Under the pieces are notes generated by a model. The model saw only the letters and a program-made list of their open reading frames with translations, was not told where the DNA came from and made no database searches. Shown here in pieces: positions 22,853-34,235 of a stretch of 34,273 nt of DNA (position 1 is its first letter; each line of letters opens with the position of its first letter). Source of the stretch: Elusimicrobiota bacterium (GTDB lineage: Bacteria; Elusimicrobiota; UBA8919); contig JACRDL010000036.1 in assembly GCA_016218625.1 (NCBI GenBank), forward strand, positions 1 to 34,273, given 5' to 3'. Made by a program: the position numbers and the translations under genes.

Positions 22853-22880
22853 AGTATAGTTTTTTTTGAAAAAAAATCAA
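22853..22880 (-). promoter_or_regulatory. Sigma70-type promoter of the flavin reductase gene, predicted leaderless
   Basis: TTGATT (22880-22875), 16 nt, TATACT (22858-22853), 7 nt, ATG (22845). It starts directly after the T-run of the btuB terminator. No Shine-Dalgarno is present between promoter and start. Confidence 0.75.
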
Positions 22881-22881
22881 G

Positions 22882-22921
22882 AAAAAAAAAGTAGCCGACT
22901 CTTAATGGTCGGCTACTTTTT
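22882..22921 (-). terminator. Intrinsic terminator after the btuB-like gene
   Basis: A perfect 9-bp stem GTAGCCGAC/GTCGGCTAC with an 8-nt loop (22891-22916), followed on the minus strand by nine T residues (22890-22882). The stem has the same GTAG...CTAC edges as nearby palindromic repeats. Confidence 0.9.
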
Positions 22922-22925
22922 GACA

Positions 22926-22978
22926 TGTAGTGCGAGGATTTATCCTCGCCAAAAGCGACCATAAATGGTCGCACTACA
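22926..22978. repeat. Double-palindrome GTAG repeat downstream of btuB
   Basis: Outer arms TGTAGTGCGA (22926-22935) and TCGCACTACA (22969-22978). Two perfect inner palindromes, 22932-22949 (GCGAGGATT centre) and 22955-22972 (GCGACCATA centre), are separated by CAAAA. Same design as 12822-12865. Confidence 0.88.
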
Positions 22979-22990
22979 CATACATTTGTG

Positions 22991-24862
22991 TCAATCCCAC
23001 AGGTACAGATTTATACCGGCGGAATATGTTCTTCCGGGAAGCGGATAATTTTCACGGGAGACATATCTTCTGTCAAAAATATTTTCAACACTGAAAAATA
23101 CTTCTGACTGAAGAATTTTTCTGCTTACCCTTAAATTCGCAAGAGTATAACCGGGAATTTTATGCTCTTTCCAATCTTCCCATATTTGTTTGTGTGTATA
23201 TTCAACTCCAAGTTTTGTTTTGATTTCTAACGGTGCCGAATAATTCAGTCCGTAATTCAGACGATGTTTTGGAGTGTACTGTAATGTTTTATAGGTTCCA
23301 GTTTCTTTACCCATGCTTTCAAGAAAAGTATAATTTAAATTTTGTGTTATGTTTTTTATACTACTATTTTCTATCTCAAATTCAACTCCTCTTGAAAATA
23401 CTTTACCAACATTTGAAGGTGTATAAATTGAACTTGTCGGGCTAATTTTTGCCCACTGAATAAAATTTTTTATATCGCTGTAAAACAGTATTATCTTTGA
23501 AACTAAAATTTCTTTTAGTTTATACTCCATACCGAAATCGGTCCCGATAGATTTTTCAGGTTTGAGTTCCGGATTACCTACACCCATACCGGGAACATCT
23601 GCGTATAAATCATCAAATGTCGGTGCACGAAACGCCCGCCCGACAGTTGAAGAGAGTTTGAAATTATCACTGAGTTTGTAGATATTGACAACTCTCGGAT
23701 TCAACTGTCCGCCGAAAACATTGTTGTAATCATATCTTGTACCAGCAGTTGCTGTTAGACGTTCAAGGTTAAATGTTTTTTGGATAAAGATAGCAGAAGT
23801 ATCAGCCCATTTATCAATAACTGTTGTTTTAGTAAATTCGTTTTTTTTATTGCAGATGTCATGCTTTCCTTCAACTCCGGCAGTTATATTATGTAGTGTG
23901 TCGGCTTGTATAGTTCCTCCGAGAGTATCTGAGATGCCAATATCATCTTTTTGGGGGCTATCGGGGTCTCTAAGACGAAAATATTTCTGCTGAAAGTAAA
24001 TTTTGGATTGCAATTTTGTTTCATCCGAGAGTTTTTTTTCATAATTTAATTCATATACCTGTTTTCTTGTTTTCATATTCTGATTTGGTGTTTTTGCTGT
24101 TTGCTCTTTATCATTGTCATAATCAGCAATTTCTGTTTTGTTTGTTCCGGGTATTCCCAGTTCGTCATTGTGGTGATTTATAAATGTTCCGAATTTCCCG
24201 ATTTTGTCAAAATCATAGCCAATTTTTGATGAGAGATTTAAGCCGTCATATTCAGAATTTTCCCTGAACCCGTCGGATACATTTTTACTTCCTGAAAGAA
24301 AAATGTTTGCCTTTCCGGGTTTTGCAGAAAAATTCATTTTACAGGATTTTGTGCTGAAACTTCCATATTCAAGTCCAATTTCGGTTTTTGGTTTTGCGGT
24401 AATTGCTTTTTTTGTTATGATATTTACAACACCGCCAAGAGCGTTTGCACCGTAAAGTGCTGAAGAAGGTCCTCGCATAACTTCTATTCTTTCAATATTT
24501 TCAGTAGGTATTTCAGAAAGATTCGCTGAACCTGCCGCACTTCCCAAAATATCATTTACAGGTCTTCCGTCAACCATAACAAGAACCTGTTTTGATGAAT
24601 CCTTGCCGCCTCTTATATTTATTTCCGAATGCGCTCCCAGAGTTCCATATTTTAATACCTGAATGACCCCGGTTTTATTTTCCAAAATCTCACCAACAGT
24701 TTTTGCGTCTGACTTTTCAATTTCGTCTTCTGTTATTACAGTAATATTCGTCGCTGTTTTTTCAACAGGCACCTCCTTTCTCAATCCGATAAACACTGTT
24801 GTTTCCTGTGCAAAAAGCACACCCATTCCCAATAAAACTAAACCAACAAAAAACTTTTTCAT
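22991..24862 (-). CDS. btuB: TonB-dependent vitamin B12 receptor (BtuB-like)
   Basis: 623 aa. Signal peptide at residues 1-18 (MKKFFVGLVLLGMGVLFA), a possible TonB box close after it (TTVFIG), a plug domain with VGEILENKTGV, INIRGG, VLVMVDGRPVND, IERIEVMRGPSSALYGANALGGVVNIITKK, then a 22-strand-type barrel containing GRAFRAPTFDDLY, GNPELKPEKS and the final VENIFDRRY block. It imports a large ligand across the outer membrane using TonB/ExbBD. Corrinoid specificity is inferred from the cobalamin riboswitch directly upstream and the BtuFCD-CobO genes before it. Strong GGAGG 10-12 nt before the ATG. A terminator follows. Confidence 0.92.
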   Translation of the reverse strand: MKKFFVGLVLLGMGVLFAQETTVFIGLRKEVPVEKTATNITVITEDEIEKSDAKTVGEILENKTGVIQVLKYGTLGAHSEINIRGGKDSSKQVLVMVDGRPVNDILGSAAGSANLSEIPTENIERIEVMRGPSSALYGANALGGVVNIITKKAITAKPKTEIGLEYGSFSTKSCKMNFSAKPGKANIFLSGSKNVSDGFRENSEYDGLNLSSKIGYDFDKIGKFGTFINHHNDELGIPGTNKTEIADYDNDKEQTAKTPNQNMKTRKQVYELNYEKKLSDETKLQSKIYFQQKYFRLRDPDSPQKDDIGISDTLGGTIQADTLHNITAGVEGKHDICNKKNEFTKTTVIDKWADTSAIFIQKTFNLERLTATAGTRYDYNNVFGGQLNPRVVNIYKLSDNFKLSSTVGRAFRAPTFDDLYADVPGMGVGNPELKPEKSIGTDFGMEYKLKEILVSKIILFYSDIKNFIQWAKISPTSSIYTPSNVGKVFSRGVEFEIENSSIKNITQNLNYTFLESMGKETGTYKTLQYTPKHRLNYGLNYSAPLEIKTKLGVEYTHKQIWEDWKEHKIPGYTLANLRVSRKILQSEVFFSVENIFDRRYVSRENYPLPGRTYSAGINLYLWD

Positions 24863-24894
24863 ACTTTTTTCCTCCCTCCGAGAATATTTCCCAA

Positions 24895-25012
24895 AATAGA
24901 CAATCGGCCGGGCTCAACTTCAGATGACAGATCTGAATGTTATTACCGTTGCGGGGCAGCGTCCCGAATTACACGGGAACTTCCTTTGCCTATCCGGTAG
25001 ATTACATTTCTT
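24895..25012 (-). promoter_or_regulatory. Cobalamin riboswitch upstream of btuB
   Basis: Read on the minus strand, GGCAAAGGAAG, then a CCCGTGTAATTCGGG stem, then GCTGCCCCGCAACGGTAA, match the conserved core and B12 box of AdoCbl-type riboswitches (consensus around GCCCCGCCACTGTA). Further 3' is a GAAGTTGAGCCCGGCCGA segment comparable to the distal GGAAGNCAGGAGACCTGCC part, though divergent. Boundaries are approximate. B12 should lower btuB expression. No clear promoter is visible between the cobO stop and the riboswitch, so it may act inside the operon. Confidence 0.85.
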
Positions 25013-25053: not shown

Positions 25054-25587
25054 TTAGTATTCTATTCCTTTTCTTCGTTGAATTCCTTTATCAAATGGAT
25101 GTTTAACTTTTTTTATTTCACTGACTAAATCTGCAATTTGAATTATTTTTTCTGTTGCATCGCGGCCTGTTAAAACGATTTCCAGATTTTCTGGCTTTTT
25201 ATTCAGTAATTCAAGTAATTCTTCTTCAGAAATAAATTTATCTCTGACGGAAATAAGAATCTCGTCAAGTATAAGCAGGTCATATTTTCTCTGTTGAAAT
25301 ATTTCTTCAATAAATTTAAGTGCTAAAAGACATTCTTCTCTGATTTTTTCTACCGGCTCATTTTTATAAAAATGCGGATGCCGTTCAGCGAATCTATAAA
25401 TATCCACACTAAGTTGTTTCAACAATTTTAGTTCACCATAATGTTCGTCTTTATGTTCTCCTTTATGAAAATTGATGTAGCACACTTTTAATCCGTGCCC
25501 GAGTGCCCTTGATGCAAGTCCTATTGCTGCCGTTGTTTTACCTTTACCATCGCCGGTATAAACCTGAACCAATCCTTTGTTTTTCAT
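25054..25587 (-). CDS. cobO: Cob(I)yrinic acid a,c-diamide adenosyltransferase (CobO/CobA/BtuR)
   Basis: 177 aa. The P-loop YTGDGKGKTTAAIGLASRALGHG (from residue 10) and the blocks CYINFHKGEH, ILDEI and VLTGRDA...LVSEIKKVKHPFDKGIQRRKGIEY match the CobO/BtuR family. It attaches the 5'-deoxyadenosyl group of ATP to cob(I)alamin or corrinoid precursors, in synthesis or salvage. AAGGAGG is 6-7 nt before the ATG, and btuD ends 12 bp upstream. Placement after the transporter fits adenosylation of imported corrinoid. Confidence 0.95.
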   Translation of the reverse strand: MKNKGLVQVYTGDGKGKTTAAIGLASRALGHGLKVCYINFHKGEHKDEHYGELKLLKQLSVDIYRFAERHPHFYKNEPVEKIREECLLALKFIEEIFQQRKYDLLILDEILISVRDKFISEEELLELLNKKPENLEIVLTGRDATEKIIQIADLVSEIKKVKHPFDKGIQRRKGIEY

Positions 25588-25599
25588 CGGTTTTCCTCC

Positions 25600-26382
25600 T
25601 TATGATGTTTCACCAGGGACTAAAAATATATATGGTTTATGTGTAACCGGATTTTCTTTTACAATGACCACAGTTCTGTAGACCTCCTCTATTGTTTGAT
25701 AAGTTAGCACTTCCTTCGGTATTCCGCTTTTGTGGATCAAACCGTTATTAAGCAACAATAACCTATTACAGTATTCACTTGCTAAATTAAGGTCATGCAG
25801 AACCATACACACTGTAAGACCGAAGTCCCTGTTTAATTTTTTTACAAGATCCAGAATTACTACCTGGTGGGTTATGTCCAGATGTGAAGTGGGTTCATCT
25901 AACAGAAGTAATTTCGGCTCCTGTGCCAATGCTTTTGCAATAAGAACAAGTTGTTTTTCTCCCCCGCTTGTTTCCGAGAGAAACCTGTCTTTTAACTTGT
26001 GAGTATCGGTTAAAACCAGACATCTTTCTGCAATTTCTAAATCCTTTTTTGTTTCTAAAAATTGAAATCTCTGAAAATATGGGATTCTGCCTAAAAGAAC
26101 AAATTCTTCAACGGTCATAAAATCTATATTAAAATCTTGCGGTACAACCGCTACTTTTTTAGCAAGTTCTTTTAATTCCATCTGTGCAATATTTTTTCCT
26201 TCAATGAGAATCAATCCCTGCCCTGGATTAAGTATTTTGGTTATTGCACGCAGGAGAGTAGTTTTTCCGGAACCGTTAGGTCCTATTATTCCTACAATTT
26301 CACCGTGCTGTATATTAAAATTTATATTTTGGAGAAAAAATTTCGAGTCGTATCCGCAAGATAAATTTCTTACCTCAAGCAT
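25600..26382 (-). CDS. btuD: Corrinoid ABC transporter ATPase (BtuD-like)
   Basis: 260 aa. Walker A GPNGSGKTT at about 35-43, Q-loop VVPQDFNIDF, ABC signature in ETSGGEKQLVLIAKALAQ, Walker B LLLLDEPTSHLD and the switch histidine in VLHDLNLASEYC. It belongs to the FecCD-partner ATPases (BtuD/FhuC/HmuV), which take up B12, siderophores or heme. B12 specificity comes from context: adenosyltransferase downstream, corrinoid synthesis genes upstream, B12 riboswitch nearby. The start codon overlaps the btuC stop (TAATG). Confidence 0.92.
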   Translation of the reverse strand: MLEVRNLSCGYDSKFFLQNINFNIQHGEIVGIIGPNGSGKTTLLRAITKILNPGQGLILIEGKNIAQMELKELAKKVAVVPQDFNIDFMTVEEFVLLGRIPYFQRFQFLETKKDLEIAERCLVLTDTHKLKDRFLSETSGGEKQLVLIAKALAQEPKLLLLDEPTSHLDITHQVVILDLVKKLNRDFGLTVCMVLHDLNLASEYCNRLLLLNNGLIHKSGIPKEVLTYQTIEEVYRTVVIVKENPVTHKPYIFLVPGETS

Positions 26383-27398
26383 TATTTTCCTCCCAGAACA
26401 ACCTGCTTTTTGCTCAAAGTATAAACAAAAAGAGAACCGCCGAGTATTCCGGTAATTACTCCGACGGGCAATTCCAGAGGAGAAATCACCGTTCTTGCTA
26501 ATGTATCACAGAAAATTAAAAAGATTGCTCCGCTTAAAAAGGAACTTATTAAAAGAATTCTATGGTCTCCTCCCACAAACATTCGCACAAAATGAGGTAC
26601 AACCAATCCCACAAAACCGATTATTCCGGATATGGAAACGCTGCAACCAGTAAGCAAAGATGCAAGAATAAAAAGCAATCTCTTGGTTTTTTCTACATTT
26701 ATACCCAAATGCAATGCTTCTTCTTCACCGAGAGAAAAAGCATTTAAGTCCAGACAGAAAAAATAAGAAATAATCAGTCCGAAAATAGAGACAAAAACCG
26801 CCAACTTTATAAGAAACCAGTTTGGCTCTTCTAACGAGCCCATTATCCAGAAAATAATTCCGTGAAGGTCTTCTACACGAGAGACAGCCATAATAAGCAT
26901 AATCAAAGACGAGGAAATAAAACTTATCATTACCCCTGTTAGAAGAAGCCCTTGAATTCTTAATATACCTCTTTTTATACTTAAAGAATACACGAGCAAA
27001 ATAATTAAAATAGCACCAAGAAAACCAAAAAGAGGCAATGAAAAAATACCGAGAATGTGGTTTAATCTTAAAACGATATTCAGGCATACGCCTAATGCTG
27101 CTCCGCCTGAAATACCGAGGGTATAGGGCTCAACAAGAGGATTTCTAAACATTCCCTGAAGGATTACCCCGGCTATGCTCAAACCGCCGCCTATGGCGAA
27201 GCCTAAAATAATTCTCGGTAAGCGGATATCAAAAATTATGCTGTATTCGGTAGTTCCTTTACCCTCAAAGATTAGAGAAATAACTTTTTTGAAAGGTATA
27301 CCTGCCGCACCGATACATAAAGAGAGAATACATACAGAAAGAAGAATCCCGCCTAAAAATAATATCCAAATAATCCATCTAAATAATTTCTTACTCAT
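26382..27398 (-). CDS. btuC: Corrinoid ABC transporter permease (BtuC-like, FecCD family)
   Basis: 338 aa, multi-helix inner-membrane protein of normal FecCD length. Landmarks are FDIRLPRIILGFAIGGGLSIAGVILQGMFRNPLVEPYTLGISGGAALG in the N-terminal half, GSLEEPNW in the middle, and SISGIIGFVGLVVPHFVRM with ELPVGVITGILGGSLFVYTL at the end. It forms a homodimeric channel for the ligand delivered by the periplasmic binding protein. The ATG overlaps the btuF stop by 4 bp, and its stop overlaps the btuD start. Confidence 0.93.
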   Translation of the reverse strand: MSKKLFRWIIWILFLGGILLSVCILSLCIGAAGIPFKKVISLIFEGKGTTEYSIIFDIRLPRIILGFAIGGGLSIAGVILQGMFRNPLVEPYTLGISGGAALGVCLNIVLRLNHILGIFSLPLFGFLGAILIILLVYSLSIKRGILRIQGLLLTGVMISFISSSLIMLIMAVSRVEDLHGIIFWIMGSLEEPNWFLIKLAVFVSIFGLIISYFFCLDLNAFSLGEEEALHLGINVEKTKRLLFILASLLTGCSVSISGIIGFVGLVVPHFVRMFVGGDHRILLISSFLSGAIFLIFCDTLARTVISPLELPVGVITGILGGSLFVYTLSKKQVVLGGK

Positions 27399-28213
27399 TT
27401 GTGTAATATTTCAGCTATTTCTTTCAGTACTTCAACAAAACTTTCCGGCGTGGGACTGCAAACTTTATCCGAATCAATAATATAAATTCTGTTATTTTTT
27501 ACTGCATTTATCGTTTTGTATTTCTGCCAGGTTTTTTTTTCTTTATCTCCCTGAATACCCATTGTAAGAATAATTATCACATCCGGATTTTGTTTGAGTA
27601 CTTCTTCCCGACTGTAAAGTCCTGTTTTTGCATTTTTAGCGATATTTATTCCGCCGGCGAATTCTATCAGGTCATTTATAAAATAATCTTTATTTGCAAC
27701 AAAAAGCGGATTTGCACCAATCTGAACTATTACTTTGAGTTTCGGCAATTTACTCATTTTTTGTTTTACAATATTTATTTTCTCTGTTGCTTCTTTAATT
27801 ATTTTATTTGCTTTCTGTTTCTTATTAACTATTTCTGATAGTTGTAAAAAAAATTCGCATAGTTCTGAAAATTTTTTTGCCGGGGAAAATGTAACAACAT
27901 TTACTTTAACATTCCGAAGTTTCTCTATTTGTCTGTTATCCATTATTGATGAACATAGAACAATATCAGGTTTAAGCGATATAATTTTTTCTAAATTCAT
28001 ATTTGTAAAAGTTCCGACAATTTCTTTATCTTTTACTTCAGGTAGTTCCTTGCAATAAAAACTTATTCCGACAATTTTATTTTCAACTCCTAAAAGGCAA
28101 AGAGATTTAGTTATTATAGGTGCTAATGAAATAATTTGTTGATATTGGTAGTCGGCGTTTAAACGCCGACTACATAAAATCAACAGAAGAGCAATAAAAT
28201 TTCTTAGTTTCAT
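27395..28213 (-). CDS. btuF: Corrinoid ABC transporter substrate-binding protein (BtuF-like)
   Basis: 272 aa from the ATG at 28213, whose ATGA overlaps the stop of the radical SAM gene; a 15-codon longer reading is rejected. The signal peptide hydrophobic run is NFIALLLILC (residues 5-14). The mature protein has IISLAPIITKSLCLLGVENKIVGIS, VGTFTNMNLEKIISLKPDIVLCS, NDLIEFAGGINIA and a C-terminal IYIIDSDKVCSPTPE, matching class III helical-backbone binding proteins such as BtuF. CSRRLNADY (14-22), at the end of the signal peptide, is encoded by a perfect 26-bp palindrome, so the processing site is uncertain. Cys14 might serve as a lipid anchor but the lipobox is poor. Confidence 0.9.
   Translation of the reverse strand: MKLRNFIALLLILCSRRLNADYQYQQIISLAPIITKSLCLLGVENKIVGISFYCKELPEVKDKEIVGTFTNMNLEKIISLKPDIVLCSSIMDNRQIEKLRNVKVNVVTFSPAKKFSELCEFFLQLSEIVNKKQKANKIIKEATEKINIVKQKMSKLPKLKVIVQIGANPLFVANKDYFINDLIEFAGGINIAKNAKTGLYSREEVLKQNPDVIIILTMGIQGDKEKKTWQKYKTINAVKNNRIYIIDSDKVCSPTPESFVEVLKEIAEILHK
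28148..28173. repeat. In-frame 26-bp perfect palindrome inside btuF
   Basis: Half-site GTAGTCGGCGTTT followed by its exact complement, fully self-complementary. It shares the GTAG...CTAC edges with 22891-22916 and 22926-22978. Read in frame at the signal-peptide/mature boundary. Confidence 0.9.
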
Positions 28214-29064
28214 GGCAAATTCAAAATTTGATTCATAGTAAAATATTCCATATTCCAATCGGGAATTACCGATTTAGATATTTTATCAATCTCCTTGAAT
28301 CTATCCAAAAGTTCATCTGCCCGAACCTCTATATGCTTATAAGGATCAGGTTTGTAAGCAGTTTCGGTCGTGTAAAACTCAACATTGTCCAAATATCTTT
28401 TGGCAACAGAATATGCCTTTCGCATCTCCTGATGAGTCGGTGTTCTTGAAACTTTCTTATCTAATTGTTCAGGTGCAAATTGATATATTTTGTAAGTTAT
28501 ATTTTTTGAAATTTGGCTTAAAAATTTTGCTATTTTTTTTATCTCCTCAAAATCCATTATATCAGGCATAAATATTGTCCGAACATAAAAGTTCAAATTA
28601 TAATGATGCAGTAACTTCACCGCCCTCAATATAGTAGCATTGCTTTTACCCGTATAGTGTTTATGGATTTTATCAGTATATGCTTTCAGGTCAAGTTTGA
28701 TATAATTTATATTCAGTGACTTTAACTCTTTGATTAAATTCCTGTCCAGCAAATAGCCATTTGTAGACATGCCAATTTTGTTGATATGCAAGTCACTTAA
28801 TTTTTGGATTAAAGAGATTAAATAATCTGCATTTGTTGTCGGTTCACCGCCGGTCATTTGAACATCATTAACCATTTCGCCGAGAATGACTTTTGAAGAT
28901 TTAATAAGTAAATTAAGAAGTTCTTCAACGGAAAAACTTCTTCCCATTTCCTTCTTGGCAATAGCAAAACATCCCTTACAGTTAAAATTACATCCGGCTA
29001 AATTAATTTTCACTTTTTTTGTAGGGCTTACTACAAATGTTAAAAACGGCACTTTTCTATACAT
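28210..29064 (-). CDS. Radical SAM protein, unknown substrate (second radical SAM of the B12 operon)
   Basis: 284 aa from the ATG at 29064, which overlaps the end of the restored Dph6-like gene by 8 bp. The radical SAM cluster motif is C25-x3-C29-x2-C32 (AGCNFNCKGC), GGEP is at 72-75, then STNGYLLD and KLDLKAYTDKIHKHYTGK. The lack of a SPASM cysteine cluster and the small size resemble the activating-enzyme-type (PflA-like) or PqqE-lacking-SPASM group; the reaction is unknown. It is tightly coupled to btuF (ATGA overlap). In this operon it could act on the peptide product, on a corrinoid, or on a partner enzyme. Confidence 0.82.
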   Translation of the reverse strand: MYRKVPFLTFVVSPTKKVKINLAGCNFNCKGCFAIAKKEMGRSFSVEELLNLLIKSSKVILGEMVNDVQMTGGEPTTNADYLISLIQKLSDLHINKIGMSTNGYLLDRNLIKELKSLNINYIKLDLKAYTDKIHKHYTGKSNATILRAVKLLHHYNLNFYVRTIFMPDIMDFEEIKKIAKFLSQISKNITYKIYQFAPEQLDKKVSRTPTHQEMRKAYSVAKRYLDNVEFYTTETAYKPDPYKHIEVRADELLDRFKEIDKISKSVIPDWNMEYFTMNQILNLP

Positions 29065-29252
29065 TGATAATTTCCAAAAACCAGTGATTATCTTTGAATA
29101 TTTTTCTGCCAATTTTAAACTTTAATAATTTTTTGAAAATTGGTCCATTATAAACGAATGTATGATATTCCCCGCCTTCACCGCAGAGGTCGACATTCCC
29201 TAATTTTTTTAAGTCCTCCACAAAACTTTTATTTATTTCTTTACCCAGCCAT
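29057..29252 (-). pseudogene. Detached C-terminal part of the Dph6-like ATP pyrophosphatase (frameshift)
   Basis: In the frame one base off from the preceding gene, the sequence reads KWLGKEINKSFVEDLKKLG, then VDLCGEGGEYHTFVYNGPIF and ends in TAG at 29059-29057. This is the missing C-terminus of the family (LGEYHTFVxDGPIF block). One base lost from an A-run (TTTT on the plus strand, 29252-29255) explains the break. It may be a real frameshift, programmed slippage or an assembly error. Confidence 0.8.
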
Positions 29253-29703
29253 TTTCATCTAAAAACTTTACATTTGTCGCAACAATAATTGCTTTAAATC
29301 CTGAATCAATAAATTCAGTAATCAATTTTTCTCTTTCCTCTTTCCATAAAGGCAAAATCGGAGTTATACCTATTTCTTTACAGACCCTTTCTACCCAATC
29401 CCTGTGTTCCTGTAAATCAATATCGCCGAATATGCCGCAAGAAATATTTTCTTTTTTAAATTCCGAAATAACTTTTTTAAATTCTTTTTCATAATTTTTC
29501 CACGAACTTTTTCTTTGAATAATCGGAATTCCGATTGAATCCGCCTGCAATTTTAATAAGTTTGAGGAAATACCGTGTGTCCGGGAATGTTTACCGTCTT
29601 CGGCAATCATATTAATAAGGAATGATACTTCATAATTTTTTAACGCTCTATATAAAGCAAGACAACTATCTTTACCGCCGCTCCAACAACAGAATGTTTT
29701 CAT
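29233..29703 (-). CDS. Dph6/ATP_bind_4-family ATP pyrophosphatase, truncated by frameshift
   Basis: 156 aa as read. PP-loop WSGGKDSCLALYRA (residues 8-21), EDGKHSRTHGIS, then CGIFGDIDLQEHRDWVERVC and ILPLWKEEREKL match the family of diphthine-ammonia ligase (Dph6) and its bacterial relatives of unknown function. Bacteria do not make diphthamide, so the bacterial substrate is different; an ATP-dependent amidation or thiolation is plausible. The reading stops at DENGWVKK, but the rest of the domain continues in another frame to 29057, giving about 215 aa if restored. Its ATG overlaps the cbpB-like stop by 4 bp (ATGA). Its place in the corrinoid operon suggests a role with the peptide or corrinoid. 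Confidence 0.85.
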   Translation of the reverse strand: MKTFCCWSGGKDSCLALYRALKNYEVSFLINMIAEDGKHSRTHGISSNLLKLQADSIGIPIIQRKSSWKNYEKEFKKVISEFKKENISCGIFGDIDLQEHRDWVERVCKEIGITPILPLWKEEREKLITEFIDSGFKAIIVATNVKFLDENGWVKK

Positions 29704-31103
29704 ATCTGCGTTACCTCCAAACTATTAAGCATTCCCTTATCCCAATTATCCCAGAGGTATGCATCCTCTTTACCATCGGCAATTAAACGTAATGCGTAGC
29801 GTGCCTGTTCCTCATAAAGTTCGCAAAAAGCACCTGGCTTTTCTATGGAACCACCCATTTCATTGGCTTCGGCAGGGCAAGGTGAACCACAGAAGTGACG
29901 AACAGCACAACGGGAACAGGGTTCAATATTTTCAATATGTCTGTTTGTAACAAGATTGAATGGTTCTGTTTTTAAAACTTTATTAATGTCATCTTTGAAA
30001 ATATTACCGCCTTTAAATTTTTCTAAACCAATAAACTCACTACAAGGAAATAAATCACCGCTACATGAAATTGCAAAAAAGCATCTTCCTCCGCCGCAGG
30101 GTGAGATGTCGCACATTAGTTGGCGCCCGCTTGGAGCAATGATACCCATCAAGACATTAGCAAAATTTGCCACCACAAGTTTACGCCCGGTTTTTTTATA
30201 AAGATGATAAGTACGGTCTAATGCCTTCAAGTAATGTTTTGATATCTGATAATCCACTGGTTTATACTGCCGGGCACCAGAGAGAGTGCAACGGATGGGA
30301 TTCAACATGCAAATCGGTACTTCCATCTTGTGTAAAAACTCAACTATTTTCGTAAGTGAGGACATATTTTTATTTGTTGTTGTGCAAATCACAGAATAAT
30401 TTTTGTAACCTCTGAGGCGATTTATTGCTTCTATTACATTTTGAAAGATACCCTTGCCATTCCAGTTTTTGCGTAGTTGATCGGCTACCTTTGCATTGTG
30501 GCCGTCAAGCGAAAGCCCGATACTTACTCCTCTTGAAGTCAAAAATTCTATCGCCTCAGCATCTAAAAGTGTGCCATTGGTCTGTATGCCGAAACGGAAA
30601 TATTTTCTAAATTTGTCTATAGCCGAAAAAACAGTTTTTTTATTAAGCATTGGCTCGGCACCATGGAAAACAATTTGTGGTTTTTGACCTTTAGGTAAGG
30701 TATGCTTAAAATAAATCTTTAGGATTTCAAGTGCTCTTGAAAGCTTCTCAACGGACATATTTTTTCCATTTTTACGTAAATTCTCAGGGATATAACAGTA
30801 TGAACAATTCAGATTACACCGGTCAGTAGGATTAAAATAAACTGCCGAGGGTTTCAAACCAAATCTCAGAATGTTCATCTCATTGACAAAAGATTTTTCT
30901 TTTTTGCGGTATTCGCGCAGATATGACGAGTCGGTCAAAGCCCGTCCAAGTCGGTTTTTTTTAACAAGTGACCAGAACGCGGTGTCCGCAGATATCAATC
31001 CGATATAGTCATTATGCCCGATATCTATAGGTTGAATCTGAAGCCCATTTCCTGTATTAAGATAAATTCCTTGAGACAATGCATAATTATTTACAATTTT
31101 CAT
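29700..31103 (-). CDS. Radical SAM/SPASM peptide-modifying enzyme, CbpB-like
   Basis: 467 aa. An N-terminal roughly 85-residue domain precedes the radical SAM motif C96-x3-C100-x2-C103 (DRCNLNCSYCY). GAEP at 149-152 is the SAM-binding equivalent, IQTNGTLLD follows, then a SPASM region with ten cysteines between 331 and 427 (C331, C336, C341, C347, C354, C396, C399, C405, C409, C427), enough for two auxiliary Fe-S clusters. Such enzymes typically modify ribosomal peptides. I recall a curated family CbpB, paired with precursor CbpA and found next to cobalamin genes; neighbourhood and the 35-aa gene upstream fit it well. AGAGG lies 4-5 nt before the ATG. A 13-bp hairpin separates it from the precursor gene. 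Confidence 0.82.
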   Translation of the reverse strand: MKIVNNYALSQGIYLNTGNGLQIQPIDIGHNDYIGLISADTAFWSLVKKNRLGRALTDSSYLREYRKKEKSFVNEMNILRFGLKPSAVYFNPTDRCNLNCSYCYIPENLRKNGKNMSVEKLSRALEILKIYFKHTLPKGQKPQIVFHGAEPMLNKKTVFSAIDKFRKYFRFGIQTNGTLLDAEAIEFLTSRGVSIGLSLDGHNAKVADQLRKNWNGKGIFQNVIEAINRLRGYKNYSVICTTTNKNMSSLTKIVEFLHKMEVPICMLNPIRCTLSGARQYKPVDYQISKHYLKALDRTYHLYKKTGRKLVVANFANVLMGIIAPSGRQLMCDISPCGGGRCFFAISCSGDLFPCSEFIGLEKFKGGNIFKDDINKVLKTEPFNLVTNRHIENIEPCSRCAVRHFCGSPCPAEANEMGGSIEKPGAFCELYEEQARYALRLIADGKEDAYLWDNWDKGMLNSLEVTQI

Positions 31104-31120
31104 TTTTCCTCTTTTTGTTC

Positions 31121-31162
31121 CGTCTGAAAGGTCCCGGAAAGAAGCACAAGACCTTTCAGACG
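31121..31162 (-). promoter_or_regulatory. Strong hairpin between precursor peptide and radical SAM genes
   Basis: Perfect 13-bp arms CGTCTGAAAGGTC (31121-31133) and GACCTTTCAGACG (31150-31162) around a 16-nt loop. No T-run follows, so it is not a standard terminator. In RiPP operons such hairpins often lower downstream expression or protect the precursor mRNA, keeping peptide in excess of enzyme; that role is inferred here. Confidence 0.7.
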
Positions 31163-31182
31163 ATTTAATCTAAAACCCGAAA

Positions 31183-31290
31183 TTATTTCTTATCCACAAG
31201 GATGTAATGGGAAAGACCGGTACCGGTTGTCTTGCATTTTTTTCGATAAGCAACAATATTTTTCTTCGTATTGCGTTTTGTTTTCTTCAC
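31183..31290 (-). CDS. CbpA-like ribosomal peptide precursor, 35 aa
   Basis: A small gene not long enough for usual gene callers. GTG start at 31290 with GAGGGGG about 8 nt upstream, lying in the last codons of the asparagine-synthase-like gene (stop at 31296), hence translational coupling. The peptide starts with a basic leader-like half (KKTKRNTKKNIVAYRKK, 9 Lys/Arg) and ends with CKTTGTGLSHYILVDKK, carrying a single Cys (19), His (28) and two Tyr (15, 29). It sits directly upstream of the SPASM radical SAM gene, the classical precursor position. It resembles what I remember of the CbpA precursor family. A GTG three codons earlier is possible but too close to the ribosome binding site. Confidence 0.78.
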   Translation of the reverse strand: MKKTKRNTKKNIVAYRKKCKTTGTGLSHYILVDKK

Positions 31291-31295
31291 TCGTA

Positions 31296-32219
31296 TCACC
31301 CCCTCTTTTTACAAATTACATAGCCACAAACATTACAGTGAAAAGCAGTGCGTTCCATTTCCGCTCTGCATCCAGGACATTTTTTTTGGTTGTTTTTGGG
31401 TTTTGGAATTTCTCCAACTTCCTTTCTGTAAATTTCATAATAATAAAGATGCTCTTTGTTAAAAAACTTTATGGGATAAATTTTTTTCTTTTTTTCAAAT
31501 TCGTCATCAGAAATTTTTGAACTGATAATCTCCCTTAATTTTGTCATACCAGAACCGTATTCCAACGGTCTTTTATTCTGCCATATAATTTCTTTGGGCA
31601 AATCCTTCTCAAATGCTTTTCTTAATATCCATTTGCCGAAAACCTTATTATGCTCTTTTCTTATTTTGAATTTTTTATCTATTGATAAAGCAAATTTAGT
31701 AAAGTTCTTGTCCATATACGGCTGTTCTATTTTTAATCCGAAATACTTCCCAATTTCATTTGAACTGAAATACATTTTTTTTGATATTTGTTGAATATAA
31801 TTATTCAAATTATTTATTTCTTTCATATAATCATACCCGCCAAAAAGTTCATCGCTTCCATCACCGGTCATTATGCTTTTTAACCCGAGTTTTTTGGCGA
31901 ATTTTAATCCAAAATAAACGGTTATATCATTAGGAATTGCAGGGTCAAAACTTTTCAGTATTTTTATTATTTGTGGTATTACAGAAATCGCTTCATCAGT
32001 TTTTATTGTCAGGTAATATGTTTTTAAGTGAAGAAATTTTTCCAACATTTTTGCGAATTTAAGGTCGGGCGCGAAATTTTCCAAACTTACATTTATCGCT
32101 GCAATATTTGGAGAGAGTACCGCTAAAATGCTTGTATCCAATCCGCCGGAGAAAAGCATTCCTTCGGCGGAATTTCGTTTTACAGATAACATCAATTTTT
32201 GTTTTAATTTATTAATCAT
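31296..32219 (-). CDS. Stand-alone asparagine-synthase-type ATP pyrophosphatase with C-terminal zinc ribbon
   Basis: 307 aa. The AsnB synthetase domain is recognisable from FSGGLDTS (23-30, PP-loop), IMTGDGSDELFGGYDYM, KIEQPYMDKNFTKFAL and RKAFEKDLPKEIIWQNKRPLEYGSG. The N-terminal glutaminase domain (catalytic Cys2) is entirely absent, so ammonia or an amine of another substrate must be used. The C-terminus adds a zinc ribbon, CPGC (281-284) and CNVC (295-298), with an extra C303. Glutaminase-free AsnB homologues activate carboxylates in macrolactam-forming RiPP pathways (lasso peptide cyclases), so it may act on the adjacent peptide or on a corrinoid side chain. Its ATG overlaps the cbiB stop (ATGA). 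Confidence 0.85.
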   Translation of the reverse strand: MINKLKQKLMLSVKRNSAEGMLFSGGLDTSILAVLSPNIAAINVSLENFAPDLKFAKMLEKFLHLKTYYLTIKTDEAISVIPQIIKILKSFDPAIPNDITVYFGLKFAKKLGLKSIMTGDGSDELFGGYDYMKEINNLNNYIQQISKKMYFSSNEIGKYFGLKIEQPYMDKNFTKFALSIDKKFKIRKEHNKVFGKWILRKAFEKDLPKEIIWQNKRPLEYGSGMTKLREIISSKISDDEFEKKKKIYPIKFFNKEHLYYYEIYRKEVGEIPKPKNNQKKCPGCRAEMERTAFHCNVCGYVICKKRG

Positions 32220-33148
32220 AATAAAACCAAGCCCGCAATCAAAAACAAGCCGGATGATATATACGCAATTTTTATACTTTTTTTAATATGTCCTTTATCT
32301 AATGGATGACAATTATCTCCGAGGAATGGTTTTGTCACAGCAATGGAGTTATAAAAATTCATTCCGCCTAACCGTATTCCCAATGCACCTGCAACAGCGG
32401 CCTCGGGAATATCACTTATCTGTCTATTTTTTAGCCCATCACGAAAAATTATCTTGAAAGAAGAAAACAAACTACATCTGCAAAATAAACTTGCTAAAGG
32501 TATAAGAAATATTGATAATATTGCGGGTATAAAATTTGCTATTGTGTCAATCTTAGCAGAGCACCATCCGAAGTCCCGATATTTTTCGTTATTATATCCA
32601 ACCATTGAGTCAAGAGTATTTATTGATTTGTAAGTTAATGCTAATGCCGGTCCGCCGATTAAAGCATAAAAAAGCGGGGAGATTATTCCATCAACAATGC
32701 TTTCAGCGATTGTTTCTATGGTTGCGCGAATAATTTCTCGTTCGTTTAAGTTTTCAGTATCTCTTCCTACAATCATAGATAATTTTTCCTTTGCTATATC
32801 TAAATCATTTTTTTTCAGTGCCCAATACACTTCCAAACTTTCTACTTTCAAGTCCTTTACCGATAAAGAAGTATAAATCAAGAAAATTGAAATTCCACAT
32901 CCAAAATAAAAATTAAAAGTAGTTGATAATTTTACAATCAAAAAAGTTACATAAAATGTTCCGCCAATAATTAAAAAAGCAAGAACAGTCCCGCCTGTTT
33001 TTTTATTTCCAAGTTTTTTCCTTAAAAAATTTTCAAGTATCTCAACCGTTTTACCTATTAATTTTACGGGATGAGGAAACCGCCTCGGGTCACCAAAAAT
33101 CAAATCCAGAATATATGCAATAGGGATAGTTAATAGTTCATAGTTCAT
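32216..33148 (-). CDS. cbiB: Adenosylcobinamide-phosphate synthase CbiB
   Basis: 310 aa, several membrane helices. The N-terminal block AYILDLIFGDPRRFPHPVKLIGK (GDP...PHPV) and the middle block VGRDTENLNEREIIRATIETIAESIVDGIISPLFYALIGGPALALTYKSINTLDSMVGYNNEKYRDFGWCSAK are diagnostic. It joins the aminopropanol phosphate arm to cobyric acid; the arm is made by the upstream CobD, so the two genes form one biochemical unit. Its ATG lies 11 bp inside the end of cobD, in a heptamer tandem repeat. In Pseudomonas nomenclature the same enzyme is called CobD. Confidence 0.96.
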   Translation of the reverse strand: MNYELLTIPIAYILDLIFGDPRRFPHPVKLIGKTVEILENFLRKKLGNKKTGGTVLAFLIIGGTFYVTFLIVKLSTTFNFYFGCGISIFLIYTSLSVKDLKVESLEVYWALKKNDLDIAKEKLSMIVGRDTENLNEREIIRATIETIAESIVDGIISPLFYALIGGPALALTYKSINTLDSMVGYNNEKYRDFGWCSAKIDTIANFIPAILSIFLIPLASLFCRCSLFSSFKIIFRDGLKNRQISDIPEAAVAGALGIRLGGMNFYNSIAVTKPFLGDNCHPLDKGHIKKSIKIAYISSGLFLIAGLVLL

Positions 33149-33154
33149 AGTTTA
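33127..33154. repeat. TAGTTCA heptamer tandem repeat across the cobD/cbiB overlap
   Basis: Four 7-bp units: TAGTTAA, TAGTTCA, TAGTTCA, TAGTTTA. Read on the minus strand they encode NYEL at the end of CobD and again NYELL at the start of CbiB, and contain the cobD stop and the cbiB start. Confidence 0.8.
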
Positions 33155-34235
33155 GAGTTTTGTTTAATTCGTTTATTAGTAAAAAGTTCTCATCCCTTTT
33201 TCTTACAGCAACACGAAAAAATTTATTATTTAATCCGCGGAAATTACTACAATTGCGAATTAGTATTCCTTTTTTCCCAAGTAAATCTGTAAGTTTATCT
33301 GAATTAAACTTATTCGTTGTAAGTTGACATAGAATGAAATTTGCTGATGGTGGATATGGTTTAAGTCCGGTTACCATTTCTAATTTCTTAAAAAATATTT
33401 CTTTTTCTTTAAGAATATATTCACGAGTTTGTTTGATATAAGATGAATCCTTAATTACCTCTTTGCCAACCAATTGTCCAAAACAGTTAACAGACCATGG
33501 TATCTGAAATTTAGAAATGTTTTTTATTATTTTTTTATTTCCAACGAGATATCCTACTCGGAGTCCAGGTATTGCAAAAAATTTAGTAAGTGACCTTAAT
33601 ACTATAATGTTTGAACTTTTAGCAGCGATTTTAACCATTGTTAAATTATCAGCATCTTTTACAAAATCAATGAACGCCTCATCTATTACGAGAGTAACAT
33701 TATACCTTCGGCAGTTTTTTATTAATGTTAGAAGTTCTTCTTTTGAAAATACAAATCCTGTAGGATTATTCGGGTTGCATAAAAAAATTAAATCTATTTT
33801 CGGTAAAAACTTAATTATTTTCTCAATTTTTATTTCAAAATTTTCAGTTTTTTTTGCTTTAAAAAAAACACACTTTCCGCCCGTCAAATTTACTGCTGTT
33901 TCATACTCGCTAAAAGTAGGTATTGGTATAAGAACCTTTTTTGGTTTTAATGCCTGAACAATAAGAAAAATCAGTTCAGATGAACCGTTTCCTATTAATA
34001 GATTTTCGGAACCGATTTTCAGGTATTTTTTAAGAGTATCTTTTAAGTCAGTACATTCAGAATCAGGATAATGGATTATAGAGTGTATGTTATTAGTTAT
34101 GATATTTTTTACACTTTTTGGTAATCCGAGAGGATTTATATTTGCGCTGAAATTGAGAATGTTTTCAGTATTATATTTTTTAATTGCTTCTGTAATATTT
34201 CCGCCGTGTAAAGTTTTCAATTTGTCCACCGCCAT
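33138..34235 (-). CDS. cobD: Threonine-phosphate decarboxylase CobD (PLP)
   Basis: 365 aa, fold type I PLP enzyme close to histidinol-phosphate aminotransferase. LHGGNI near the N-terminus, NFSANINPLGLP, NPNNPTG (154-160), DEAFIDF (185-191) and the PLP lysine K218 in RSLTKFFAIPGLRVGYL; the HGGN start and the place before cbiB favour CobD over HisC. It decarboxylates L-threonine-3-phosphate to (R)-1-amino-2-propanol phosphate for the nucleotide loop of cobalamin. The ATG at 34235 has no clear Shine-Dalgarno, and a GTG two codons later is possible. Only 38 bp lie upstream in the window, so the operon's promoter and earlier genes are outside. Confidence 0.93.
   Translation of the reverse strand: MAVDKLKTLHGGNITEAIKKYNTENILNFSANINPLGLPKSVKNIITNNIHSIIHYPDSECTDLKDTLKKYLKIGSENLLIGNGSSELIFLIVQALKPKKVLIPIPTFSEYETAVNLTGGKCVFFKAKKTENFEIKIEKIIKFLPKIDLIFLCNPNNPTGFVFSKEELLTLIKNCRRYNVTLVIDEAFIDFVKDADNLTMVKIAAKSSNIIVLRSLTKFFAIPGLRVGYLVGNKKIIKNISKFQIPWSVNCFGQLVGKEVIKDSSYIKQTREYILKEKEIFFKKLEMVTGLKPYPPSANFILCQLTTNKFNSDKLTDLLGKKGILIRNCSNFRGLNNKFFRVAVRKRDENFLLINELNKTLNYEL

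Follow-up and report, generated by a model that had tools for sequence, protein, structure and literature searches.

cbpA-cbpB, a short peptide gene and its radical SAM partner linked to cobalamin riboswitches and embedded in a corrinoid salvage operon of an Elusimicrobiota bacterium

Why should an operon for corrinoid salvage encode a peptide of 35 residues together with a radical S-adenosylmethionine (SAM) enzyme? The question is raised by a stretch of 34,273 nucleotides from an Elusimicrobiota bacterium (contig JACRDL010000036.1 of assembly GCA_016218625.1), here called the window, which carries the gene pair cbpA-cbpB among genes of vitamin B12 (cobalamin) metabolism. A sequence-only reading of this DNA had assigned the pair to the families CbpA and CbpB, and both proteins indeed exceed the cut-offs of the respective curated models (TIGR04164 and TIGR04163, scores in the feature list below). 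The families themselves are thus already named and curated. We read cbpA-cbpB, with a probability of about 0.4, as a minimal B12-repressed cytosolic cassette of the type that makes ribosomally synthesized and post-translationally modified peptides (RiPPs), serving the corrinoid or cobalt economy of the cell.

Cobalamin riboswitches and the distribution of the pair

A search with TIGR04163 over 295 genomes of the window's phylum found CbpB in 5; of 345 genomes of the phylum that includes a Syntrophaceae metagenome-assembled genome (G296), 31 had it. We compared 10-20 kb around the 36 cbpB genes. A cobalamin riboswitch (RF00174) precedes cbpA on the same strand in 30 of these 36 loci, at a distance of 77-300 nt (median 117). 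As the genomes hold just 0-12 such riboswitches each (24 genomes checked), this position is very unlikely to be due to chance. Between aptamer and cbpA, an intrinsic terminator hairpin was detected in 14 of the 30 leaders, compared with 4 of 300 control stretches drawn at random from these loci, and this excess suggests a transcriptional OFF switch. A riboswitch directly ahead of the gene and the frequent terminator together lead us to expect that cbpAB expression is off when adenosylcobalamin is plentiful. In three further loci (L012, L049 and L050), cbpAB lie within a run of cbi/cob genes and a same-strand riboswitch is found 8-15 kb upstream of cbpB; riboswitch and pair may there share a single transcript.

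Most loci contain cbpAB as a stand-alone two-gene unit whose neighbours are unrelated or on the opposite strand. The sequence-only reading had proposed a link to corrinoids and had counted homologues lying far from corrinoid genes as evidence against it. Taken literally, this is what we observed, no corrinoid gene adjoining the pair in about 30 of 36 loci, but the link survives since such loci carry the riboswitch. In fact, the riboswitches ahead of cbpA elsewhere show the connection to B12 better than the operon of the window does. Where the pair is embedded, its neighbours are cbiC/cbiX/cbiM (L050), cbiC and bluB/cbiG (L012), cbiB-cobD (L051) or cobT-cobS and btuFCD (L004). In L012, bluB, encoding dimethylbenzimidazole synthase (L012:9010-9836; 244.6 bits, cut-off 150), stands immediately upstream of cbpA.

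Among Desulfobacterota, 29 of 31 genomes with CbpB encode CbiC and the other two CbiG, versus CbiC in 35 of 90 tested genomes devoid of CbpB (Fisher p about 4e-8, not corrected for kinship). CbiC and CbiG are both absent from the clade of the window, which comprises the window, L004 and L014 (100/100 support). Judged by gene content, the pair occurs mainly in corrin makers, the window's own lineage carrying it as a scavenger. A role solely in de novo corrin synthesis was rejected, three genomes (G000, which is 86% complete, G295 and G065) having cbpB and neither CbiC nor CbiG. The cobalt transporter CbiM is found in most CbpB-bearing genomes, which likewise rules out CbpAB as a replacement for a cobalt importer. 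In G065, an intact cbpB follows a degraded cbpA (L014:9300-11103), within a thiG-thiH-thiF-thiE run with a thiamine pyrophosphate riboswitch.

B12 riboswitches of delta-proteobacteria control the B12-independent ribonucleotide reductase NrdDG as well (PMC545781). The modified peptide might therefore be a regulator or accessory subunit tuning an enzyme that depends on B12 or the B12-independent enzyme that stands in for it, and a stand-alone regulated unit with a cytosolic peptide would suit such a function. We hold this unlikely, since the pair tracks corrin synthesis genes, lies in cbi/cob operons and has nrd or met genes beside it in none of the examined loci.

The operon of the window and the extent of the module

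Profile searches gave the minus-strand order cobD-cbiB-asnB-cbpA-cbpB-dph6-rSAM-btuF-btuC-btuD-cobO-riboswitch-btuB (rSAM, second radical SAM gene), with the following features:

33138..34235, minus strand: cobD, threonine-phosphate decarboxylase (TIGR01140 326.8 bits, cut-off 290.55)
32216..33148, minus strand: cbiB, adenosylcobinamide-phosphate synthase (TIGR00380 222.5 bits, cut-off 165.9)
31296..32219, minus strand: asnB-like PP-loop amide ligase (PF00733; no glutaminase domain; C-terminal zinc-ribbon-like tail)
31183..31290, minus strand: cbpA, precursor peptide of 35 residues, VKKTKRNTKKNIVAYRKKCKTTGTGLSHYILVDKK (TIGR04164 44.8 bits, cut-off 35)
31204..31236, minus strand: conserved core of CbpA, C19 to Y29, CKTTGTGLSHY (alignment of 36 CbpAs)
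31121..31162, minus strand: inverted repeat between cbpA and cbpB (13-nt perfect arms, 31150-31162 and 31121-31133)
29700..31103, minus strand: cbpB, predicted radical SAM/SPASM peptide maturase (TIGR04163 702 bits, cut-off 375)
29057..29703, minus strand: DUF71-B12 (Dph6-like) ATP pyrophosphatase, frameshifted (PF01902 in both halves)
28210..29064, minus strand: second radical SAM protein, activase-like, with CNFNCKGC and no SPASM domain (PF04055 88 bits)
25600..28258, minus strand: corrinoid ATP-binding cassette importer of btuF-btuC-btuD type (Peripla_BP_2 in btuF; BtuF-type profile under cut-off; gene order matches L004)
25054..25587, minus strand: cobO/btuR, corrinoid adenosyltransferase (PF02572 199 bits)
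24857..25008, minus strand: adenosylcobalamin riboswitch candidate ahead of the btuB-like receptor gene (RF01482 39.6 bits, E = 2e-4)
22991..24862, minus strand: BtuB-like TonB-dependent outer-membrane receptor (PF00593 and PF07715)

The order given by the sequence-only reading is real, except that the second radical SAM gene had been omitted. The start of this gene at 29064 overlaps the stop of dph6, and a counterpart of 30% identity occupies the same place in L004. The riboswitch candidate scores below the gathering score of 50, yet displays a clear B12 box. As the window is one entire contig (G000:C11), the head of the operon upstream of cobD lies out of view.

The same reading had counted four genes as one peptide-modification module. 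It had described the AsnB-type ligase as devoid of glutaminase and bearing a zinc ribbon, which agrees with the domain search and with the CxxC...CxxC of its tail. The Dph6-like frame (29233-29703) was placed in the right family, but it covers just the N-terminal two thirds of the protein. A 1-nt frameshift in a run of A near 29257 separates it from the C-terminal frame (29057-29221), and both halves align at 65% identity to the intact 225-residue gene of L004. The simpler explanation of the split is an indel of one nucleotide, either real decay or an assembly error; programmed frameshifting was considered and thought unlikely, no classical slippery heptamer being present.

Do these enzymes act together with CbpB, jointly modifying the peptide or coupling it to a corrinoid side chain? 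The order asnB-cbpA-cbpB-dph6, with tight overlaps, is common to two separate genomes: L004 keeps asnB-cbpA-cbpB-dph6-rSAM-btuFCD-cobO-btuB with cobT-cobS ahead. However, asnB and dph6 accompany cbpAB in the window and L004 only, a dph6 homologue being found also in L014, upstream of the thi genes. Both have B12-salvage contexts of their own. In G006, a relative of the window without cbpB, a ligase 68% identical to that of the window (L081:295-1218, minus strand) is the last gene of cobO-cobU-cobT-cobS-asnB, and the CbpA motif, sought in the 294 nt behind it, was not found. Of the DUF71-B12 subgroup of COG2102, 75 of 102 members adjoin B12 transporter genes (PMC3541065); the dph6 of the window combines a PF01902 domain with a place beside B12 salvage genes, its reading frame being broken. 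With the subgroup B12-associated without cbpAB, and dph6 frameshifted in the window itself, a four-gene module is very improbable. Because nearly all other loci have cbpAB but neither asnB nor dph6, we take the peptide module to be cbpA and cbpB, and asnB and dph6 to be salvage genes. The ligase with its zinc-ribbon-like tail is, on its gene context, a candidate for an unrecognised corrinoid-salvage ligase.

The cbpA gene starts with GTG at 31290, preceded by a GGGGG-type ribosome site and immediately by the asnB stop. The hairpin in the gap between cbpA and cbpB (-25.8 kcal/mol, z -2.7 versus shuffles, no T-run after it) has counterparts of similar size in L004 (z -2.0) and L046 (z -1.2), a moderate excess over shuffled sequences, and could possibly set the CbpA:CbpB stoichiometry. 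Farther downstream, a palindromic stretch between the btuB-like and flavin reductase-like genes (22858-22971), with Rfam matches at chance level, is probably an intrinsic terminator.

The peptide, the enzyme and their possible role

A cbpA counterpart is present upstream of cbpB in 35 of 36 loci, so that the 35-residue frame is conserved at its position, as the sequence-only reading had required. We aligned 36 CbpAs, from these 35 loci and from plasmid pHY1 of Methylovirgula sp. HY1. Four residues (R16, G25, L26 and H28, numbered as in the window) are invariant, and the shared pattern consists of R, then Cys (34/36), 5-7 residues and G-L-[STA]-H-[YF]. The core Ser is replaced by Thr or Ala in 3 of 36 peptides, Tyr by Phe in one and Cys by Ser in two (L013 and L015). 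C19 and H28, which had been proposed as cobalt ligands, are located in the peptide as described; His is kept in all 36 CbpAs, Cys only in 34. Net charge ranges from 0 to +13. Divergent CbpAs fall under the TIGR04164 cut-off of 35 (L013, 22.9 bits; L070, 28.3 bits), and the family is broader than the curated peptide model. The sole CbpA with Phe for Tyr, that of L049, is paired with a CbpB having Tyr at position C341, a single case which may be chance.

CbpB matches TIGR04163 over positions 2-428 of 428 and contains PF04055 and PF13186 domains. Beyond CxxxCxxC, the enzyme of the window has 13 cysteines, not ten as previously counted; 8 of these are invariant among the 36 homologues, bringing the invariant cysteines to 11. 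C331 is invariant and C341 is present in 34 of 36 homologues. CbpB is a radical SAM enzyme of the SPASM type in which cysteines for the SAM cluster and for two auxiliary clusters are invariant. Its AlphaFold2 model (predicted local distance difference test score 88.5, predicted template modelling score 0.88) resembles best, among PDB folds, CteB (5WHY and 5WGG; template modelling score about 0.65-0.68) and anSMEcpe, and the nearest other profiles and folds are those of peptide maturases (PapB, DynA, anSME, CteB). Residues 20-81, modelled as three strands and two helices, could possibly form a RiPP recognition element fold. In L013 and L015, where the CbpA Cys is lost, CbpB has unique changes at 142, 143 and 403, both loci belonging to one lineage. 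The only further contig match in the CbpB scan (L005) was dismissed as a chance match of 16 residues.

From these data we derive the following scheme. CbpB would modify the C-terminal core of CbpA (C..(5-7)..GLSH[YF]). Since the unit encodes no exporter, protease or signal peptide, the product should be cytosolic. As the least certain step, modified CbpA would be a small ligand in which the invariant His, in a site shaped by the modification, holds a corrinoid or cobalt in transit. The cargo might be incoming cobinamide or cobalamin in scavengers like the organism of the window, and, for producers, either cobalt or late intermediates of corrinoid synthesis; the outcome would be better use of scarce B12. 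In the window, the pair sits inside a salvage operon, between the nucleotide-loop genes and btuFCD. The ligand role, in which a His of the product binds corrinoid or cobalt in transit, is a guess, rather more likely wrong than right. By a similarly tentative reading, less likely than not, a ribosomal peptide modified by a radical SAM enzyme and made under B12 riboswitch control would serve corrinoids or cobalt inside the cell, whether as carrier, as ligand or as precursor of a cofactor.

Several observations weigh against a B12-repressed cassette of this kind. Terminators were detected in only some half of the leaders. No riboswitch lies directly ahead of cbpA in the window, L004 or L014, and their genomes gave no RF00174 match; in the window, the operon head lies past the contig end and the sole riboswitch candidate sits ahead of btuB. 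The cbpAB pair of Methylovirgula pHY1, for which no riboswitch was found, is a clear exception to B12 control. Genomes are not independent, hence the Fisher p overstates the association with CbiC. The window genome has only one protein with a B12-binding domain, and the invariant His of CbpA may merely be the residue that CbpB modifies or recognises.

B12-starvation control resembling that of uptake systems, the basic nature of CbpA (see the charges above) and the TonB-type receptor with BtuFCD in the window operon might also fit a secreted product, either a metallophore binding cobalt or corrinoids or a bacteriocin directed against B12 users. This is quite improbable: stand-alone units contain no signal peptide, exporter, immunity gene or protease, the core is nearly identical across phyla, unlike in antimicrobial peptides, and the prevalence of CbiM means that the pair does not replace it.

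The main competitor of the cassette reading is a pathway like those for pyrroloquinoline quinone (PQQ) or mycofactocin, with CbpA as the scaffold. CbpB would cross-link or excise GLSHY residues, and general proteases would free a small cofactor that feeds the corrinoid (e.g. as lower ligand) or substitutes for scarce B12. The two-gene logic, the very short precursor and the SPASM maturase resemble pqqA/pqqE, and low-B12 control would fit. In Methylovirgula pHY1 (L085:11804-16753), cbpA-cbpB are followed by a Crp/Fnr regulator gene and then pqqA-pqqD-pqqE; the pair adjoins bluB, a gene of lower-ligand synthesis, in L012 and lies near cobT-cobS, with asnB between, in L004. But the core Ser, Tyr and Cys each vary, so that no aromatic pair is fixed; cbpAB have no dedicated later enzymes beside them; and the adjacency to bluB and to pqq is one case each. 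We regard this pathway as possible, though doubtful.

Bacterial genes repressed by B12 mostly serve its synthesis, uptake, cobalt transport or encode B12-independent isozymes. A peptide with a radical SAM maturase under the same kind of switch fits none of these usual classes and therefore points to a missing step or molecule in a well-charted cofactor pathway. Conserved copies of the pair occur in Desulfobacterota, on an alphaproteobacterial plasmid and in the window's phylum. As the window lineage is salvage-only, the role of CbpA must be useful also without corrin ring synthesis, which narrows the options. If the cassette reading is true, cbpAB make a RiPP dedicated to vitamin B12 economy, produced when B12 is low. 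The pair is small enough for one co-expression test, and the riboswitch indicates when its product should be sought.

Comparison with known systems

The names CbpA and CbpB in NCBIfam, borne also by the Methylovirgula plasmid pair in its record, carry no function; the pair of the window, above both cut-offs, belongs to a salvage operon, and its genome has neither CbiC nor CbiG. A riboswitch ahead of cbpA, the usual arrangement among the loci compared here, does not belong to the curated definition. In the literature searched, which included few subscription journals, no paper on TIGR04163/TIGR04164, a B12-riboswitch RiPP or a cobalophore was found. New here, and not met with in that literature, are the survey of riboswitches, the finding that asnB and dph6 stand outside the module, a peptide family broader than its curated model, and the presence of the pair in a scavenger lineage.

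The dph6 of the window stands next to cbpB and ahead of BtuFCD, in a run of genes that includes cbiB, as is likewise seen in the DUF71-B12 subgroup (PMC3541065). Unlike that subgroup, it is frameshifted, and cbpAB elsewhere do without dph6.

PapB, which like CteB is a thioether maturase of ranthipeptides, gives the best other profile match to CbpB (164.6 bits), the curated cut-offs for PapB and for the SCIFF maturase not being reached. In PapB, the auxiliary clusters AC1 and AC2 are bound by cysteines 352/370/421 and 408/411/417/440, respectively (PMC10470005), and CbpB cysteines 336/354/409 and 396/399/405/427 match this spacing to within one residue. Unlike PapB, CbpB has the additional conserved C331 and C341, either of which could occupy the AC1 site that is open in PapB for the substrate thiol. 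Compared with PapA and SCIFF, CbpA has a single Cys (Ser in L013/L015) at variable distance from GLSHY. The acceptor Cys, which a precursor of the ranthipeptide/SCIFF class would be expected to conserve, is present in 34 of 36 CbpAs; a thioether ranthipeptide as universal product is not supported, because Cys becomes Ser in one lineage.

Parallels in organization are the cofactor-making RiPP systems PqqA/PqqE and MftA/MftC, which share with cbpAB a minimal precursor, a SPASM enzyme, a near-fixed core across phyla and an apparent house-keeping role. From both, cbpAB differ in having another core, no dedicated downstream enzymes and control by B12 riboswitches.

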